A DNA stretch of 42,177 nucleotides from Minisyncoccota bacterium (GTDB lineage Bacteria > Patescibacteriota > Minisyncoccia > Phycocordibacterales > UBA12079). Under the pieces are notes generated by a model. That model was given only the letters and a program-made list of their open reading frames with translations. It was not told the DNA's origin and ran no database searches. Each line of letters opens with the position of its first letter. Within the stretch, counting starts at the first letter, position 1. This document shows positions 6,509 to 42,177 of the stretch, piece by piece. The translations under genes and the position numbers were made by a program. Location of the stretch: assembly GCA_028689435.1 (NCBI GenBank), contig JAQTWD010000003.1, positions 1 to 42,177 on the forward strand, given 5' to 3'.

Positions 6509-6620
6509 TTATTCGGAACAATTTTTAGATTTTTAGATAATTTTTGACAATTTTAGTTTAAATAATTTTGAATAATTTGAAATAATTTTGAATAATTTTG
6601 AATAATTTTATTTCAAAAAA

Positions 6621-6660
6621 TTTACGTAAAATTAGTCCGACCGGACTAATTTTACGTAAA
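6621..6660. repeat. 40-bp hyphenated palindrome, left copy, flanking the Cas2/PaaX-like gene
   Basis: TTTACGTAAAATTAGTCCG-AC-CGGACTAATTTTACGTAAA. Confidence 0.97.
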
Positions 6661-6746
6661 AAATTTTCAGCTTTTTTAATTATTTTTAATGTTATTTAGC
6701 ACTATATTTACAATTTATATATTCATAATACGAAAAAGTGTGCTAA

Positions 6747-7376
6747 TTAGTATAGACCAAATTCTTCTTTCAGCCATTTATCGTTTTCCAAACAATCAAC
6801 TGTCATATATAAAACATCTTTACCTAGAAACAAGTTAGACTTCATCAGTATGACAAGTTCCTCACAATCATAAGGAAATATCCAAACACTATTTTGTAAT
6901 TTAACAAAACCAAAATTAATTAAAGTGGTTCTTAATAATTTTCTAGTACTTTTTCTGGTCTCTTTTATATCAAACATCACTACCCTCCATTTTTTATCCC
7001 ATTTTTTAGGTTTTTTTATTTCCAAATCCCCTACTTCATATTTAGCTAATTGTTCTTTTCCTTTTTCTGTTATACGAAGAAACTTTTTCCCATTTTTTTC
7101 TTCCCAAACCAGATTACCTTTTTGAACAAGGTTTTTTATTGATTTGTTTAAATAATATTTTTGATCACCTTTTCTATATTTTTTCTTACCAGAAAACTGT
7201 CCGAAAACTTGCAAAACATTAGGTGCCAAAACAGCAACACCAACCAACCCAACTGTTGCGACAGTTGCCAAAATTATTTTCTGTACATTTATGTTTTTAT
7301 TTTTCACTCTACAAACAAAGAATCTTACTAAACAATTTAGAAAGGACTGATCTCGATAATTAAAATTAATCAACAA
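6747..7376 (-). CDS. Cas2-like / PaaX C-terminal-like domain protein with N-terminal TM and winged-helix-like region; true start may be downstream
   Basis: WRVVMFDIKETRKSTRKLLRTTLINFGFVKLQNSVWIFPYDCEE resembles the Cas2 ferredoxin-like fold as in CPR PaaX/Cas2-like proteins. Confidence 0.75.
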   Translation of the reverse strand: MLINFNYRDQSFLNCLVRFFVCRVKNKNINVQKIILATVATVGLVGVAVLAPNVLQVFGQFSGKKKYRKGDQKYYLNKSIKNLVQKGNLVWEEKNGKKFLRITEKGKEQLAKYEVGDLEIKKPKKWDKKWRVVMFDIKETRKSTRKLLRTTLINFGFVKLQNSVWIFPYDCEELVILMKSNLFLGKDVLYMTVDCLENDKWLKEEFGLY

Positions 7377-7381
7377 TATAA

Positions 7382-7421
7382 TTTACGTAAAATTAGTCCG
7401 GTCGGACTAATTTTACGTAAA
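7382..7421. repeat. 40-bp hyphenated palindrome, right copy; exact reverse complement of 6621-6660
   Basis: TTTACGTAAAATTAGTCCG-GT-CGGACTAATTTTACGTAAA. Confidence 0.97.
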
Positions 7422-7583
7422 TTATAACACACAACATACAACACACAGCACAGAACACACAATCCTCCACAACAAACAGAATAAATGATTATTGATTTAA
7501 AAGCCCTTTGCTAAAAAAATTTTTGATTTTTTTGCTGCAATCTTACTATTGATATTATGCCAAGTAATGTGGTTTTTTTGACA

Positions 7584-17308: not shown

Positions 17309-18166
17309 TTAGTCAACCTTTTTCGGAGGATCCTGACTCAAGATATTTTTTATATCAAAAGATACAAAATCTATCGGAATAAATGAGTTTGTTCCAGTCT
17401 CAACATTTATTCCAACTACTTCCCCCTTCAAATTTAACATAGGAGCTCCTCCAAAAACACTTGTTGGAGAAATGTTTGTCTTTATTGCTAAAGTTACCAA
17501 ATCTTTTATTTCTGATGTTGTTGACGCTGTGTTGTCAGACACGCTATCTCTGACAAATCCTGAAACGATACCAGTAAATACTTCTGTAGATTCAATTCCA
17601 CCCAAAACAACAATTGATTGTCCGAGTTTTAAAGAATCAGAGCTTGCTATATTTGCCTCTTTAAAAAAAGTTTTAAATATCTGAGAATCATTTTGGACAA
17701 CTTTCAAGTAAGCAACATGTTTACTTTCATTTATACTTATTTTTTGTAAATCGATTTTTTTATCTTCTATATAAACGGCATAATTTCCTCCCTCAACGAG
17801 ATTTGAACTATCAGTAACAAGTATTCCGCTTTTATCAACAAAAAAACCAAATCCGACAAATATTTCTCCACTCTCCGTTTTGTTTACGATTCTGACAAAA
17901 ATTTCTTTCATTTTATCAACTACATCAGCAACTGAATTTTGTTCTTTAACAACAACTATATCGTTTTTCGCGGAAGCGGTTTGTGTGTTTTCTGGTGCGA
18001 CTGTTTCAATTGTTTTTGTAACAACCCTCTGAATTGTTTGAGTTATAGCAGGAGGAGCTTGATCCATCAAAGTAACAGTAACAATACCTGTAGCAATAGA
18101 AGTAACAAAGCTGACTAGCAAAGTCAAAAGAACAGTTTGTGCTTTTGTTAGTTTTTCTATATCCAT
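17309..18166 (-). CDS. HtrA/trypsin-like fold membrane-anchored protein, probably catalytically inactive
   Basis: N-terminal TM; GFGFFVDKSGILVTDSSNL and SVFGGAPMLNLKGEVVGINV align with HtrA motifs but lack the catalytic residues. Confidence 0.75.
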   Translation of the reverse strand: MDIEKLTKAQTVLLTLLVSFVTSIATGIVTVTLMDQAPPAITQTIQRVVTKTIETVAPENTQTASAKNDIVVVKEQNSVADVVDKMKEIFVRIVNKTESGEIFVGFGFFVDKSGILVTDSSNLVEGGNYAVYIEDKKIDLQKISINESKHVAYLKVVQNDSQIFKTFFKEANIASSDSLKLGQSIVVLGGIESTEVFTGIVSGFVRDSVSDNTASTTSEIKDLVTLAIKTNISPTSVFGGAPMLNLKGEVVGINVETGTNSFIPIDFVSFDIKNILSQDPPKKVD

Positions 18167-18280
18167 CCCGTTAGAGATAGGACGCGGACTTTGTTAAATC
18201 TCACATACTATCTATTTAAATTAATTTTGATAAATTGCTTTGGTTAAATATATTGTTTCGTGTCCGCTATCTCTAACGGG
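18167..18280. mobile_element. IR element copy A (114 bp), termini CCCGTTAGAGATAG/CTATCTCTAACGGG, flanked by ATCCAT direct repeats
   Basis: 14-bp perfect terminal inverted repeat; 6-bp direct repeats at 18161-18166 and 18281-18286. Confidence 0.75.
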
Positions 18281-18326
18281 ATCCATTAATACTATGATAA
18301 CCTATTGGAAAAAACTTATCAAATTT

Positions 18327-33231: not shown

Positions 33232-33708
33232 TTATTTAAAATAAACCGTTAATTCCAAAGCATCATCATGTTCTGGTAAACCAGACGGATTATCTTTTTT
33301 CAAAATCAACGCCCCTCTCCTACTAAAATCTCCTATATTTTGTGGATTTTCAAATTCCAAACTGGCCGTAAAAGGAACAAACTCCTCGGTCATCCAATCA
33401 TCTGTTGCAGTCGCAATACCTTGTGCAATTATTCTTCCGTCCCAATCAACCAGCGACACAGGAAAACTTGCTTCAAAAAACCAAGTCCCCCTTGCTTGAC
33501 CTTTTATTACAAGAGGGCTTGTTACTATTTCTTCTGGAAGTGGACTTTCAAGAATAACCAGATCTTTATAATTCAAAAAATCCTTTAATGGTTCTTCTGT
33601 ATTTCCATTTTCCACAACATCGTCATTATCTTTCATCTTCAAACCAACTTGCCACAAAAAACCAGCAATGATTACGAGAATACCCACAAAAAATAAAGTT
33701 TTTTTCAT
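33232..33708 (-). CDS. Gmad2 immunoglobulin-like domain protein, membrane anchored
   Basis: VILESPLPEEIVTSPLVIKGQARGTWFFEASFPVSLVDWDG. Confidence 0.85.
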   Translation of the reverse strand: MKKTLFFVGILVIIAGFLWQVGLKMKDNDDVVENGNTEEPLKDFLNYKDLVILESPLPEEIVTSPLVIKGQARGTWFFEASFPVSLVDWDGRIIAQGIATATDDWMTEEFVPFTASLEFENPQNIGDFSRRGALILKKDNPSGLPEHDDALELTVYFK

Positions 33709-33892
33709 CCCGTTAGAGATAGGAAATCGCTCTTAATAAAAAACGGTTTCTCATCTATTTAATTATTATTAATAAACTTATTGTATTATATTTTTTTAAA
33801 AATTTCCGCCTGTACTATCACGTTCAACTATATAATCAATCCTGTCATGTACATTATACACCCGATATATGCATCTTTTAATCTCTAACGGG
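33709..33892. mobile_element. IR element copy B (184 bp), flanked by TTCAT direct repeats
   Basis: CCCGTTAGAGAT (33709-33720) / ATCTCTAACGGG (33881-33892); tTTCAT/aTTCAT flanks. Confidence 0.7.
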
Positions 33893-37507: not shown

Positions 37508-37540
37508 ATATTCATTATACTACAATAAAAAATACAACCC

Positions 37541-37571
37541 AAAAAGTTGGCGGTCCAACCGCCAACTTTTT
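37541..37571. repeat. REP-like palindrome 1 (loop CCA), overlapping the RAYT stop codon
   Basis: AAAAAGTTGGCGGT-CCA-ACCGCCAACTTTTT. Confidence 0.95.
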
Positions 37572-38244
37572 AATCCCCATATCTTTTTTCATTTATATTT
37601 TTTGCTATTCCTTCTGAAATCTTTTTATAATTATTTATATCTGTGTATTGTCCTAGAATAATTCCCTTTTCACACAAATTATACTTGCTATTTTTATTAG
37701 TGTATTCATCCCAACTAGATCTATTTGGTATTGAATCCAAAAAATGTTTTCCGAATTTTTCAAATTTTGGGTGAACTTTGTTATTTAAGTTAACATAAGC
37801 GCTTGCATACAATAATTGTTCATTTGTTTCTATATGAACAGCCTTGAATTTGCCTTGAAATAACGCCCCACTTCTTTCGTATTTATTATTGATATACCAA
37901 GTATAGCCACCATTTAATCTTTTCATAAATTCACTTATTCCACCTTCAACCAACTGTTCTAATATAAAATGGTAGTGATTTGGATTTAAACAATAACAAA
38001 TGATATTTACCAATCTTCTTTTATCTCCAGAAAAGTTGGCGGTCCAACCGCCAACTTTTCTAATCTTTTTAGATTTATTTATAAGAAATATATCATTGCC
38101 AGATTCGACATTATTAAATTCTTCCATACTTTGAAGAAATCTAAGTGCGTCATATTTATCCATAAATATATGCCTTTTATCTACCCCTCTGTTGAAAATA
38201 TGATAATATTCCTTTTGAACAAATGGTGTTTTTCTATTTCCCAT
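37570..38244 (-). CDS. REP-associated tyrosine transposase (RAYT / IS200-like Y1 family)
   Basis: YYHIFNRGVDKRHIF, CYCLNPNHYHFIL (HUH), GISEFMKRLNGGYTWYINNKYERSGALFQGKFKAVHI; ATG at 38242-38244. Confidence 0.92.
   Translation of the reverse strand: MGNRKTPFVQKEYYHIFNRGVDKRHIFMDKYDALRFLQSMEEFNNVESGNDIFLINKSKKIRKVGGWTANFSGDKRRLVNIICYCLNPNHYHFILEQLVEGGISEFMKRLNGGYTWYINNKYERSGALFQGKFKAVHIETNEQLLYASAYVNLNNKVHPKFEKFGKHFLDSIPNRSSWDEYTNKNSKYNLCEKGIILGQYTDINNYKKISEGIAKNINEKRYGD
38030..38060. repeat. REP-like palindrome 2 (loop CCA), inside the RAYT CDS
   Basis: GAAAAGTTGGCGGT-CCA-ACCGCCAACTTTTC; translated as RKVGGWTANFS. Confidence 0.95.
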
Positions 38245-38259
38245 ATTTGTATATAATAA

Positions 38260-38294
38260 CACAAAAGTTGGCGGTTGGACCGCCAACTTTTGTG
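38260..38294. repeat. REP-like palindrome 3 (loop TGG, opposite orientation), just upstream of the RAYT
   Basis: CACAAAAGTTGGCGGT-TGG-ACCGCCAACTTTTGTG. Confidence 0.95.
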
Positions 38295-38316
38295 GATATT
38301 TTCTATATTTATATTT

Positions 38317-39411
38317 TTACAAATTTCTACCTGCAGAAAGTACGTGTCTAACGAGAGCGCTCGTATACCCCATTTCATTATCGTACCAAGCCAACACTTT
38401 TACCAAATTTCCTCCCACAACACGTGTAAATGCCAAATCAGCGATGGAAGCAAAACGACTACCAACAATGTCTGACGAAACAATTGGTTCTTCGGTGATA
38501 GCAAACAAATTTTTCCAATTTGGATCCTCGCTCGCTTTTTTCAAAATATTATTTATTTCTTCTACTGTTGTATTTCTCTTTGCAATGAAAGTTATATCCA
38601 AAATAGATCCAGAAATAACTGGCACACGAACAGCAATACCGTCAAAATTTCCTTTCAAATCTGTGATTACCTGTGTTGTTGCAACAGCGGCCCCTGTTGT
38701 AGAAGGAATAATATTTTGTGCTCCTGCTCGACCCTTTCTAAAATCTTTTTCACTTGGAGAATCAACCATTTTTTGTGTAGCTGTATAACCGTGAATTGTA
38801 TTTAACATTGCTTTTTCAATCCCAATTTCTTTTCTCAAAATTTCCAACACAGGACTACCTGCGTTGGTTGTGCAAGAAGCGTTAGAACTAATTTTACATT
38901 TTTTCAAATCATCTTCGTTTATTCCCATTAAAACAGTCGCTCCAATAAAACCGTAATTAGGTGTGTCTGTCATCTGTGTTTTGTTTTCTGTTTGGTCATC
39001 TTTGGAATTTGTGTTTTGTGTTTTGTCTTTAACTGGTGCAGTTATAACAACTCTCTTTGCACCCGCCTCAATATGAGCGTTTGATTTTTCATAAGAATTA
39101 AAAACTCCTGTTGATTCAACCACTACATCTATGTCCAAAGACCCCCAAGGTAAATTCTTTGGGTCTTTCTCACTCAAATATTTTATTTCCCTACCATTGA
39201 TAGAAAGAAAACCATTTTCAACCTTTATATCCAAATCACTTTTTCCATAGGCACTGTCGTATTTCAAAAGATATGCGATGTTTTCAACGCTACCCAGATC
39301 ATTTACTGCGATTACTTCCAATTGTGGATTTTCTTCGGCCAATTTCAAAAACGCTCGTCCGATACGCCCAACTCCGTTTACCGCTATTCTTAATTTTTTA
39401 GTATTACTCAT
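38317..39411 (-). CDS. gap: glyceraldehyde-3-phosphate dehydrogenase, with a repeat-like insertion
   Basis: IAVNGVGRIGRAFLKLA, SSNASCTTNAGSPVL, WYDNEMGYTSALVRHV. Confidence 0.95.
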   Translation of the reverse strand: MSNTKKLRIAVNGVGRIGRAFLKLAEENPQLEVIAVNDLGSVENIAYLLKYDSAYGKSDLDIKVENGFLSINGREIKYLSEKDPKNLPWGSLDIDVVVESTGVFNSYEKSNAHIEAGAKRVVITAPVKDKTQNTNSKDDQTENKTQMTDTPNYGFIGATVLMGINEDDLKKCKISSNASCTTNAGSPVLEILRKEIGIEKAMLNTIHGYTATQKMVDSPSEKDFRKGRAGAQNIIPSTTGAAVATTQVITDLKGNFDGIAVRVPVISGSILDITFIAKRNTTVEEINNILKKASEDPNWKNLFAITEEPIVSSDIVGSRFASIADLAFTRVVGGNLVKVLAWYDNEMGYTSALVRHVLSAGRNL

Positions 39412-39426
39412 ATATTTTAATTTAGT

Positions 39427-39705
39427 TTATAATTTTTGTTCCCCCGTTAGAGATAGGAAACGTTTTAGTCGATTTTTTAAATATTTCTTTCCTGGTCCAG
39501 ATTTTAAATATCTTTCTCTATCATAGGCATCATATATATTTAAACATGCTTCATAATAAATAATTTCAAGAGGACCTCTTCCTTTTGTAGATAAAACAAG
39601 TCCATCACAATGCTCCCTAAAACGTTTCCGTAAATCTTTAGAGCAACCTGTATACCATCTACTATCTTTTTTACTTTGTAATACATAAACGTAATACATA
39701 AACAT
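39427..39705 (-). CDS. GIY-YIG nuclease family protein
   Basis: MFMYYVYVLQSKKDSRWYTGCSKDLRKRFREHCDG...GPLEIIYYEA; start at 39705, the ORF to 39726 probably over-extends. Confidence 0.9.
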   Translation of the reverse strand: MFMYYVYVLQSKKDSRWYTGCSKDLRKRFREHCDGLVLSTKGRGPLEIIYYEACLNIYDAYDRERYLKSGPGKKYLKNRLKRFLSLTGEQKL

Positions 39706-39716
39706 CTCTAACGGGG
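39442..39716. mobile_element. IR-bounded unit copy D (275 bp) containing the GIY-YIG gene
   Basis: CCCCGTTAGAGAT (39442-39454) / ATCTCTAACGGGG (39704-39716), perfect 13-bp inverted repeat. Confidence 0.65.
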
Positions 39717-39887
39717 CGAGCCACATCCGTTTATTGCTACTTTTATTTTTTTCTCCATAATATTTTTTAAATTTTTAATTTTTTAAATATAATCCGAATC
39801 TACGAATTTATCCGAATACTACAAATTACGAATTACCCTAATAATCAACAAATCTACCATTCAAATAATAATCAAAAATTCTTCTGG

Positions 39888-40032: not shown

Positions 40033-42177
40033 CTATAAACTATCGACTACCGGCTCAGTTGTCGTAGCCACTGGCTCTGCTTGCCCCGTTAGAGGCAGAC
40101 TGTCGGAGACAGTCGTGGTCTCTAATGGGGTCACTTGCCCCGTTAGAGGTAGACTGCTGGAAGCAGTCGTCAGCTCTAATGGGGTCGCTGTCGGCTCTAA
40201 GCTATCAACTATCAGCTCTTCCACAATCACCGTCCTCGTACTTGTCGCAGTATTCGTTCCATCAAACACTGTATAAGTAACTATGTATTCTCCTGCTGTT
40301 GTTGTGTCTACTTTGTCTGCGTCTATTGTATCTACGATGAGAGAGTGTCCTTGGCTATCTACTGCTGTGGCTCCTAGATCAGCGTAGGTGCTTCCGATTA
40401 TTATTGTAGCTGGGTTGTTGCCGGTGACGGTTATAATCGGAGCTGTGTATGTTGCGGTACTGTCTACTGTAGACTGTGAACTATCGACTGTATCGCAGGC
40501 TCCTGCGATATTTACCATTGCTCCATTTTGAATTCTCACACAATAAATTTCTCCTGTTACTTCGTCCACCATCTCAATTCCATTCGTAACAACCTTTTCT
40601 GCTGTCAAAGTCTTTACGACAACATCTTTGAAGTAAGCGATCCCGTCAACAAATTTTGCGCCTAAACTTTCTAGATGAGAAAGGACAGAATCAACAACCC
40701 CTGTTGAAACAGTCGGCGTTGAAGAAGCAATAGCTGAGATTTTTGTATTGATTTCCTTAATCGCATTTACCAAAACCGAAGTCAATTTTGGATAATCAAG
40801 GTTCATAATGGTGCCTTTGTCGTCGTGTCCGATTACTTCTGGGATAAGGGTATTTACTTCTTCTGCGATGAATCCGATTTGAGTTGAAGAAGAATTGATA
40901 AAGTCTGATTTCCAATTGAATGATACAGGACGTAATTGAAGTACTGTGTCTAGACCGTATGTTAGATCGTTGATGTTTGTTTTGAATCTTTCTGACGATG
41001 CTCCACAGGCGGTTGTTGATGTTGCTAGTTCTCCGCTGGTTGATATACAAGCGTAATAACCTGTTCCGTCATTGGTTAGACCGGTGAAAGCGGCTGTTCC
41101 GTTTACTGACAAAGTTCTCCATGGGGTGGTGGTGCCGATGCCGACGTTGCCAGTACCATCTGAAACAGTAAGCCATTTATTAACAAAATTTTCATTTCCA
41201 ATATAAAAGTTACTATCTCCATCGTCAGCTAAACCAATGTGGAAATTAGTTGTTCCAACTGTTCTTAAAATTATTCTAGCGTCTCTGGATGTTGCTCCTC
41301 TATCCAAAATTAGATTGGCATCACTCCCAGAATCTAGCTGAAAATTAATAGAATATCCACTCCCTCCTGTTTCTAATTTCTGATTTACAGCTGATGTATT
41401 ACTATATAGATGGAGCATCTCGCTCGGACTCGCCGTCCCCACCCCCACATTCCCATTATTCAACACAGCAAACAAAGAAGTGGTTGCACTTGCTGTAGAG
41501 CTGGCAATGTTAAATAGTGTTGTATTTGTTTCTCCGTTGTTTGCATGGATTGAAAGTTTTGCAAAAGGTGTGGTGGTGCCGATGCCGACGTTGCCATCTC
41601 CTTGCAAGGTCATAATATTTGATTGTGATATGGTGTCCACTACATTATGTAAAAGAAAATTCATCTTATTGCCTGACGCACTAGTATTTGTGACTGTAGT
41701 ATAAATTGAATGATATCTAATATTTGTATCGACATCGGACCTCCCAAATCTTATTTGTTCAGAACTAACTCCAAATATTCCATTTCTTACCGAAGTAATT
41801 CCTCCTTTTATATCAAGTTTTCCTAAGGGTCCGGTTATCCCCACCCCAACATTCCCATTATCCAAAACAGTAAATTTTGGTGAGTTGGCAGAGTCGGCAA
41901 CTTGAAAAGCCGAGCCAGTACCTGTTCCGGTTCCTGTTACTGAAAGTTTTGCAAAAGGTGAGGTGGTGCCGATGCCGATGTTGCCGTTATTAAGAATGTG
42001 CAAGCTATCAACATATGCTCCATTATAGAATGTTTTAAATGCATACCCACCAAGAGTTTGAATGGTTAGGCCAAAATCAGAAGCATTTGTGTATAAGCCG
42101 ACATAAGAGTTCCCATATGTATTTCTCAATTTCAAACCATTTGAATAAGTCATCCCATTTACATCCAATTTATCAAC
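40033..42177 (-). CDS. large surface/tail-fibre-like protein with S74 intramolecular chaperone domain and DUF5011-like Ig domain; 5' end outside the window
   Basis: repeated GNVGIGTTTPFAKLSV; SERFKTNINDLTYGLDTVLQLRPVSFNWK...IGFIAEEV; PIITVTGNNPATIIIGSTYADLGATAVD. Confidence 0.88.
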   Translation of the reverse strand, partial: VDKLDVNGMTYSNGLKLRNTYGNSYVGLYTNASDFGLTIQTLGGYAFKTFYNGAYVDSLHILNNGNIGIGTTSPFAKLSVTGTGTGTGSAFQVADSANSPKFTVLDNGNVGVGITGPLGKLDIKGGITSVRNGIFGVSSEQIRFGRSDVDTNIRYHSIYTTVTNTSASGNKMNFLLHNVVDTISQSNIMTLQGDGNVGIGTTTPFAKLSIHANNGETNTTLFNIASSTASATTSLFAVLNNGNVGVGTASPSEMLHLYSNTSAVNQKLETGGSGYSINFQLDSGSDANLILDRGATSRDARIILRTVGTTNFHIGLADDGDSNFYIGNENFVNKWLTVSDGTGNVGIGTTTPWRTLSVNGTAAFTGLTNDGTGYYACISTSGELATSTTACGASSERFKTNINDLTYGLDTVLQLRPVSFNWKSDFINSSSTQIGFIAEEVNTLIPEVIGHDDKGTIMNLDYPKLTSVLVNAIKEINTKISAIASSTPTVSTGVVDSVLSHLESLGAKFVDGIAYFKDVVVKTLTAEKVVTNGIEMVDEVTGEIYCVRIQNGAMVNIAGACDTVDSSQSTVDSTATYTAPIITVTGNNPATIIIGSTYADLGATAVDSQGHSLIVDTIDADKVDTTTAGEYIVTYTVFDGTNTATSTRTVIVEELIVDSLEPTATPLELTTASSSLPLTGQVTPLETTTVSDSLPLTGQAEPVATTTEPVVDSL

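Follow-up and report, generated by a model that had tools for sequence, protein, structure and literature searches.

Our analysis indicates that copy A, a short inverted-repeat element, is a MITE that recently entered the start codon of an HtrA-like gene, and that a GIY-YIG nuclease is probably the mover of its family; we put the probability of this reading at about 70%. Copy A lies in a 42,177-nt stretch of a Minisyncoccota genome, referred to here as the window. Elements of this family insert at gene starts of the form ATG(A/G)A, duplicate about 5 bp including the ATG, and turn the same end towards the host ATG; after insertion an intact second ATG is left for the host gene. A larger form, with only a GIY-YIG gene between the same ends, likewise occupies start codons with the polarity unchanged, and its presence varies between sister genomes. 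We infer from sequence that the GIY-YIG protein mobilises both forms, while it could instead be cargo or a homing nuclease, with another enzyme acting in trans.

Copy A (18167-18280, minus strand) is non-autonomous and belongs to a subfamily of about 114 bp. Its right, host-proximal end is at 18167, where the terminal inverted repeat CCCGTTAGAGATAG (18167-18180) adjoins the host ATG; the left repeat is CTATCTCTAACGGG (18267-18280). The host gene (17309-18166, minus strand) encodes an HtrA/trypsin-like protease of 285 aa (Pfam Trypsin_2), and its start codon is the insertion site. The first-pass annotation had described a 114-bp element with perfect 14-bp inverted termini, bracketed by ATCCAT and ending directly at the ATG of the downstream HtrA-like gene, and it is present exactly as described, with ATCCAT at both 18161-18166 and 18281-18286. 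The same annotation had read these flanks as a matched 6-bp direct repeat. The flanks are indeed duplicated, but the true duplication is 5 bp. On the minus strand it reads ATGGA, once at 18162-18166, the host-proximal copy that holds the host start codon, and once at 18282-18286, the distal copy; position 18281 is a T borne by the element.

The length of the duplication was examined over 94 copies. In the left flank, position 6 is always T (94/94 copies) regardless of the target, and shows no within-copy agreement; for this reason we assign it to the element and reject a 6-bp duplication. At flank positions 4-5, non-consensus bases matched within a copy 5 times against 0.52 expected, and 0 of 20,000 shuffles reached 5, so that the within- versus between-copy comparison suggested at the outset gives a within-copy excess. 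The target duplication therefore measures 5 bp (ATGNN), or else 4 bp if the A is supplied by the element. The possibility that the flanks merely reflect a repeat consensus holds for the sixth base, always T, and for a shared preference for ATGAA; otherwise it fails.

The target-site duplication is further supported by empty sites. We aligned the flanks of every copy to the whole chromosome of G004, a member of the same genus available as a single contig of 752,630 bp. At the copy A locus G004 has no element, and the flanks join at a single ATGGAT (401290-401295). G004 is the closest of four relatives with an uninterrupted start of the copy A host gene (87% protein identity); in the other three (G001, G002 and G006) the same gene start is likewise uninterrupted and reads through ATGGATATAGA. 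The search for relatives lacking copy A, proposed with the original observation, thus succeeded in four genomes. Nine further clean empty sites were found in G004 (C4, C8:17832, C8:32288, C22:2472, C28, C37, C40:5778, C40:9876 and C43), and at C17 a newer element sits inside the left ATGAAT of an older one common to G004 and the source genome, G000. Both target duplication and empty sites, as expected of MITEs, are therefore observed. Tandem arrays also occur in G000 at C18:3024-3482 (L069) and C22:280-675 (L071), with only ATGAAT or ATTAAT between elements, as would be expected if new elements kept entering the left ATGAAT of a copy already in place.

A second element in the window, copy C (33709-33892, minus strand), is 184 bp long; its host, whose start codon it occupies, is a Gmad2-domain gene (33232-33708). 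The flanks of copy C had been given as ATTCAT on both sides, which is wrong, as only one side has ATTCAT and the other has TTTCAT. The interiors of copies A and C are dissimilar, as had been noted, and the reason is that they are members of different size groups. G000 contains three such groups (about 99, 114 and 184 bp) with good alignment within each, and both the 114-bp and the 184-bp subfamilies have relatives of their own elsewhere in the genome. When the members of a size group are oriented by the neighbouring gene, the same end faces the gene. In the 114-bp group, 98.6% of cells are paired when both stems are taken together, and three pairs of the sub-terminal stem are compensated. A hairpin under selection, whether as DNA or as RNA, would fit this, the compensating events being few.

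The compensated pairs, together with the position of the elements immediately 5' of start codons in fixed polarity, could also be expected if the repeats were conserved cis-regulatory leader RNAs of the riboswitch or attenuator type and not mobile DNA. We consider this highly improbable. The elements were checked for, and found missing, in orthologous genes of close relatives, their target genes share no common pathway, and insertions are nested in tandem. Moreover, an Rfam scan of the window at gathering thresholds returned two tRNAs only, with no group I or group II intron and no leader RNA.

In the 747-kb genome G000, the 14-mer end occurs 27 times and the 11-mer CCCGTTAGAGA 58 times, against 0 for a reversed control pattern. 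Every CCCGTTAGAGA end finds a partner within about 300 bp, and with all ends paired they form some 36 elements of 97-295 bp plus a few hairpins of 33-45 bp. Only 1 of the 36 elements carries a recognisable gene, the GIY-YIG gene, and the rest are non-coding. Short non-coding DNA with terminal inverted repeats in many dispersed copies is what defines a MITE, and this is what G000 contains. Besides the GIY-YIG element, 28 elements adjoin a host gene and 7 lie in tandem arrays off gene starts. By hand count, all 28 gene-adjacent elements end exactly at the host ATG, in one polarity. Host reading frames are open at the adjoining ATG, and in 20 of 22 host proteins examined the family match starts there. 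These families include ribosomal proteins L21 (rplU) and L36 (rpmJ), signal peptidase I, TsaD, TsaE, Fmt, YsxC, KsgA, dUTPase, LepA (lepA), PGK (pgk), SecE and RuvX, as well as a glycosyltransferase, a HAD hydrolase, an M16 peptidase, an exonuclease, an HI0933-like protein and, in the window, the trypsin-like and Gmad2 proteins. Many elements thus stand before essential genes.

Few ATGAA sites are gene starts, so the placement of 28/28 elements is far from chance: in G004 predicted gene starts account for 188 of 2306 ATGAA sites, or for 188 of 428 after excluding coding sites. Either start codons are targeted directly, or insertions elsewhere have been lost. The sequence ATGA is found at 26 of the 28 gene-adjacent copies, whereas among G004 gene starts the corresponding base is A in 48%; copies from relatives were gathered with a pattern ending in ATGAA, and target base frequencies are consequently valid from G000 only. 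Ends of the CTAACGGGATGAA type are present in 35 of 99 relatives from the order, and CTCTAACGGGATGA in 10 of 192 genomes sampled across the phylum.

Further information about the family came from its protein-coding relative, which, like the genome-wide targeting of start codons, the first-pass annotation had not noticed. In the window, a GIY-YIG gene lies inside the same inverted ends (39443-39715, minus strand), the right end encoding the C-terminus FLSLTG; the ORF spans 39427-39726 on the same strand (PF01541, E=1.6e-13). Protein-coding elements with these ends carry only this nuclease of about 86 aa. Residues Y3, R26, E50 and Y16 are invariant in 14 GIY-YIG sequences, and the PF01541 match with conserved catalytic residues places the protein in the GIY-YIG superfamily. 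Its profile also matches a solved structure, the UPF0213 protein BH0048 (1zg2, E=4.3e-10). The MITE-like copies therefore have a coding relative with the same ends and target, whose role in mobility is putative.

Several features tie the coding form to start codons. GIY loci are found at ATGA start codons in 38 of 110 cases, where the stop of the GIY gene, ...CGGGA[TGA] (CTA ACG GGA TGA), overlaps the host ATG. In 21 of 34 suitable loci (hand count) the GIY frame is open from the duplicated left ATG (ATG AAT CCC GTT AGA GAT, MNPVRD); this fusion is absent from about one third of GIY elements. Elements of about 184 bp retain the GIY coding end at their right end (TTTCCTATCTCTAACGGG, encoding FLSLTG). 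At one and the same gene start codon, G008 has a GIY element and G009 a short element, while G007 and G010 are empty. The target gene in G008 and G009 encodes a protein with an HGHYDH motif, metallo-beta-lactamase-like by inspection. This comparison tells us that both forms share one target site and polarity, and that the GIY form is polymorphic. In G000, however, the sole end-bearing GIY gene is off a start codon, with C/G and not T/A beside its ends, and G004 has private short copies yet no end-bearing GIY gene. From these two cases, the helper may have been lost or may come from elsewhere.

Similar GIY genes occur in 78 of 99 relatives from the order, and in named genomes of Patescibacteria, Omnitrophota, Planctomycetota, Desulfobacterota, Elusimicrobia, Acidobacteria and other groups. 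Most are tightly bracketed by inverted repeats that vary among loci and match within a locus (CCCGTTAGAGAT, CCCGTACGAAAT, CCCGTTCCAGAA, ACCCTGTTAAAT). An end-pair score of at least 14 was reached by 57 of 80 true pairs compared with 21 of 240 swapped pairs, a control that bears on co-variation of the ends only and not on their presence, the ends being similar across loci. The sequence TTTCGTACGGGATG is found in 7 genomes of the order, including G036, G043 and G057, whose GIY genes bear CGTACG-type ends. A phage origin was rejected, with one weak GIY match among 50,697 phage records. Other GIY genes (L230, L232 and L234-L237) have ends of the ACCCTGTTAAATAA...TTATTTAACAGGGT type, encode a protein ending in SYLTG and are not at ATGs; their stops lie within GGGTAA or GGGTGA, and they are possibly a second targeting mode. 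At 39380-39760 in the window, the GIY element follows a 5' fragment of gapdh and is itself followed by an intact gapdh. In an unrelated genome (L245:1380-1900), a GIY element occupies the identical codon of gapdh, and 38 bp from the 5' end of the gene are perfectly duplicated. There is perhaps a gapdh-targeting GIY lineage that leaves the gene intact.

The role of the nuclease has to be weighed against two other explanations. The short elements could be ordinary MITEs of a conventional transposase, possibly lost, the GIY-YIG gene being captured passenger cargo. It is general knowledge that MITEs usually need a DDE or similar transposase and that duplications of 4-5 bp are common for such enzymes, and GIY-YIG proteins are not established transposases. 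We nevertheless regard this explanation as unlikely, because the ends in G000 pair within about 300 bp and frame no other recognisable gene, and PF01609 is absent from G000 and G004. GIY is also the gene that such ends enclose in Patescibacteria, Omnitrophota, Planctomycetota, Desulfobacterota, Elusimicrobia and others. A DDE insertion sequence of the IS4/IS5 type was specifically rejected: the one DDE family searched, DDE_Tnp_1 (PF01609), gave no match to a helper transposase in G000 or G004, and an end spacing of about 300 bp is too short for a DDE gene.

Alternatively, the GIY genes could be site-specific homing endonucleases spread by homologous repair, with the short elements as decayed remnants that are not independently mobile. 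GIY-YIG is a classic homing-nuclease fold, 9 of the 14 members match a group I intron endonuclease model weakly, and the shared gapdh codon in two unrelated genomes, with the 38-bp 5'-end duplication in one of them, would suit such a lifestyle. Nevertheless, a single genome has short elements at about 28 gene starts that are unrelated to one another; many of these elements are missing from a sister species, and their duplications of about 5 bp come with no shared flanking homology. Homing cannot reach unrelated sites, and we judge this explanation quite improbable. Mobilisation by the GIY-YIG protein is thus the reading that we prefer.

According to that reading, the GIY-YIG protein would nick or cut ATGAA targets and the element ends, and would move the short copies in trans. 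The GIY form would take over the host promoter and the left start codon, giving the MNPVRD... fusion, and would hand ribosomes to the host gene via the TGA/ATG overlap (ATGA). An insertion of this kind would create an instant two-gene operon, tolerated for that reason even in essential genes. Operon-style coupling does not in general account for the short elements, since we found neither an excess of read-through mini-ORFs coupling translation across them (29/71 observed, 32.3 expected from shuffles) nor a leaderless promoter brought by the element (TANNNT, -14 to -11 of the host ATG), though the genome uses this register. Leaderless starts look common in the genome. None of 26 insertion sites has a Shine-Dalgarno motif, which 17-19% of background starts possess, and 42% of the sites have a -10 box immediately ahead of the ATG, a feature of 21-25% of background starts. 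Although based on small numbers, this suggests that genes with leaderless starts are either preferred or tolerated as targets.

MITEs, Rickettsia palindromic elements (RPEs) and GIY-YIG homing nucleases are known kinds, and the elements described here resemble each of them in part. Like MITEs, they are short, non-coding and dispersed, with terminal inverted repeats, target duplications, empty sites and a coding relative with the same ends. They differ in standing exactly at start codons in fixed polarity, and in having as coding partner a GIY-YIG nuclease and not an IS transposase; neither 'start codon' nor 'GIY-YIG' occurs in a review of prokaryotic MITEs from 2024 (PMC10969869). RPEs are likewise palindromic, about 100-150 bp long, and enter protein-coding genes of a reduced genome that survive the insertion. 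However, RPEs are in-frame fusions inside genes (PMC10969869), whereas the elements described here are found at the start codon, which they duplicate, and the host protein is not altered. We rejected the RPE assignment because host N-termini are canonical at the host-proximal ATG and the distance from left to right ATG is not kept a multiple of 3. With free-standing or intron-encoded GIY-YIG homing endonucleases they share the PF01541 catalytic domain, a tiny selfish gene and a spared host gene. They differ in that compact inverted ends encode the C-terminus, short non-coding derivatives exist and the targets are many and unrelated.

REP/RAYT systems (IS200-like Y1 transposase) also combine a small nuclease with dispersed palindromes, and one is present in the window (37570-38286). 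However, its AAAAGTTGGCGGTC... palindromes are unrelated in sequence to the ends of our elements, and this candidate was rejected, as the Y1 gene of the window is bracketed by AAAAGTTGGCGG palindromes and not by CCCGTTAG ends. The RAYT-type Y1 gene lies between AAAAGTTGGCGGTC palindromes at 37524-38309, with a third palindrome within the gene (about 38028-38059). The window contains other repeats. Two 45-bp hairpins with CCCGTTAGAG...CTCTAATGGG ends are located at 40085-40183 inside a repeat-rich ORF of 711 aa, a palindrome family in coding sequence. At 6619-7423, a PaaX/Cas2-like gene (6747-7376) is enclosed in a 49-nt inverted repeat of 94% identity with a palindrome (ACGTAAAATTAGTCCG...CGGACTAATTTTACGT), and looks like another small mobile unit. 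Finally, TAACTGA repeats of Beggiatoaceae immediately precede start codons, most of which lack a ribosome-binding site (PMC4679880). They share that position with our elements, but are 7-bp tandem direct repeats, far shorter, with no inverted ends described.

Our search of the literature for GIY-YIG genes associated with inverted repeats, for MITEs, for start codons, and for COG2827 or the terminal sequence itself, with preprints and most subscription journals outside its scope, found no description of such elements. In the literature searched, start-codon targeting was not found together with fixed polarity and a coding partner consisting only of a GIY-YIG nuclease, and the elements with their GIY-YIG kin may be a little-noticed kind of transposon. 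A broader proposal, on which we see the odds as even, is that of a widespread class of elements with a nuclease of about 86 aa as sole enzyme, which would target start codons, take over the host promoter and ATG, regenerate the ATG by duplication, hand translation over at TGA/ATG and leave short non-coding offspring.

If this is true, few known coding transposons would be as small as these (about 270 bp), and DNA transposition would be driven by a nuclease family that is not known for it. A gene-dense, highly reduced genome would be occupied at the one position where parasite and host gene both work. The elements would also offer a way into the study of translation in Patescibacteria, a group in which leaderless genes appear common and in which essential genes such as rplU and secE carry start-codon insertions. 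The short GIY-YIG frames that are known from many phyla as lone endonucleases would thereby gain a function.
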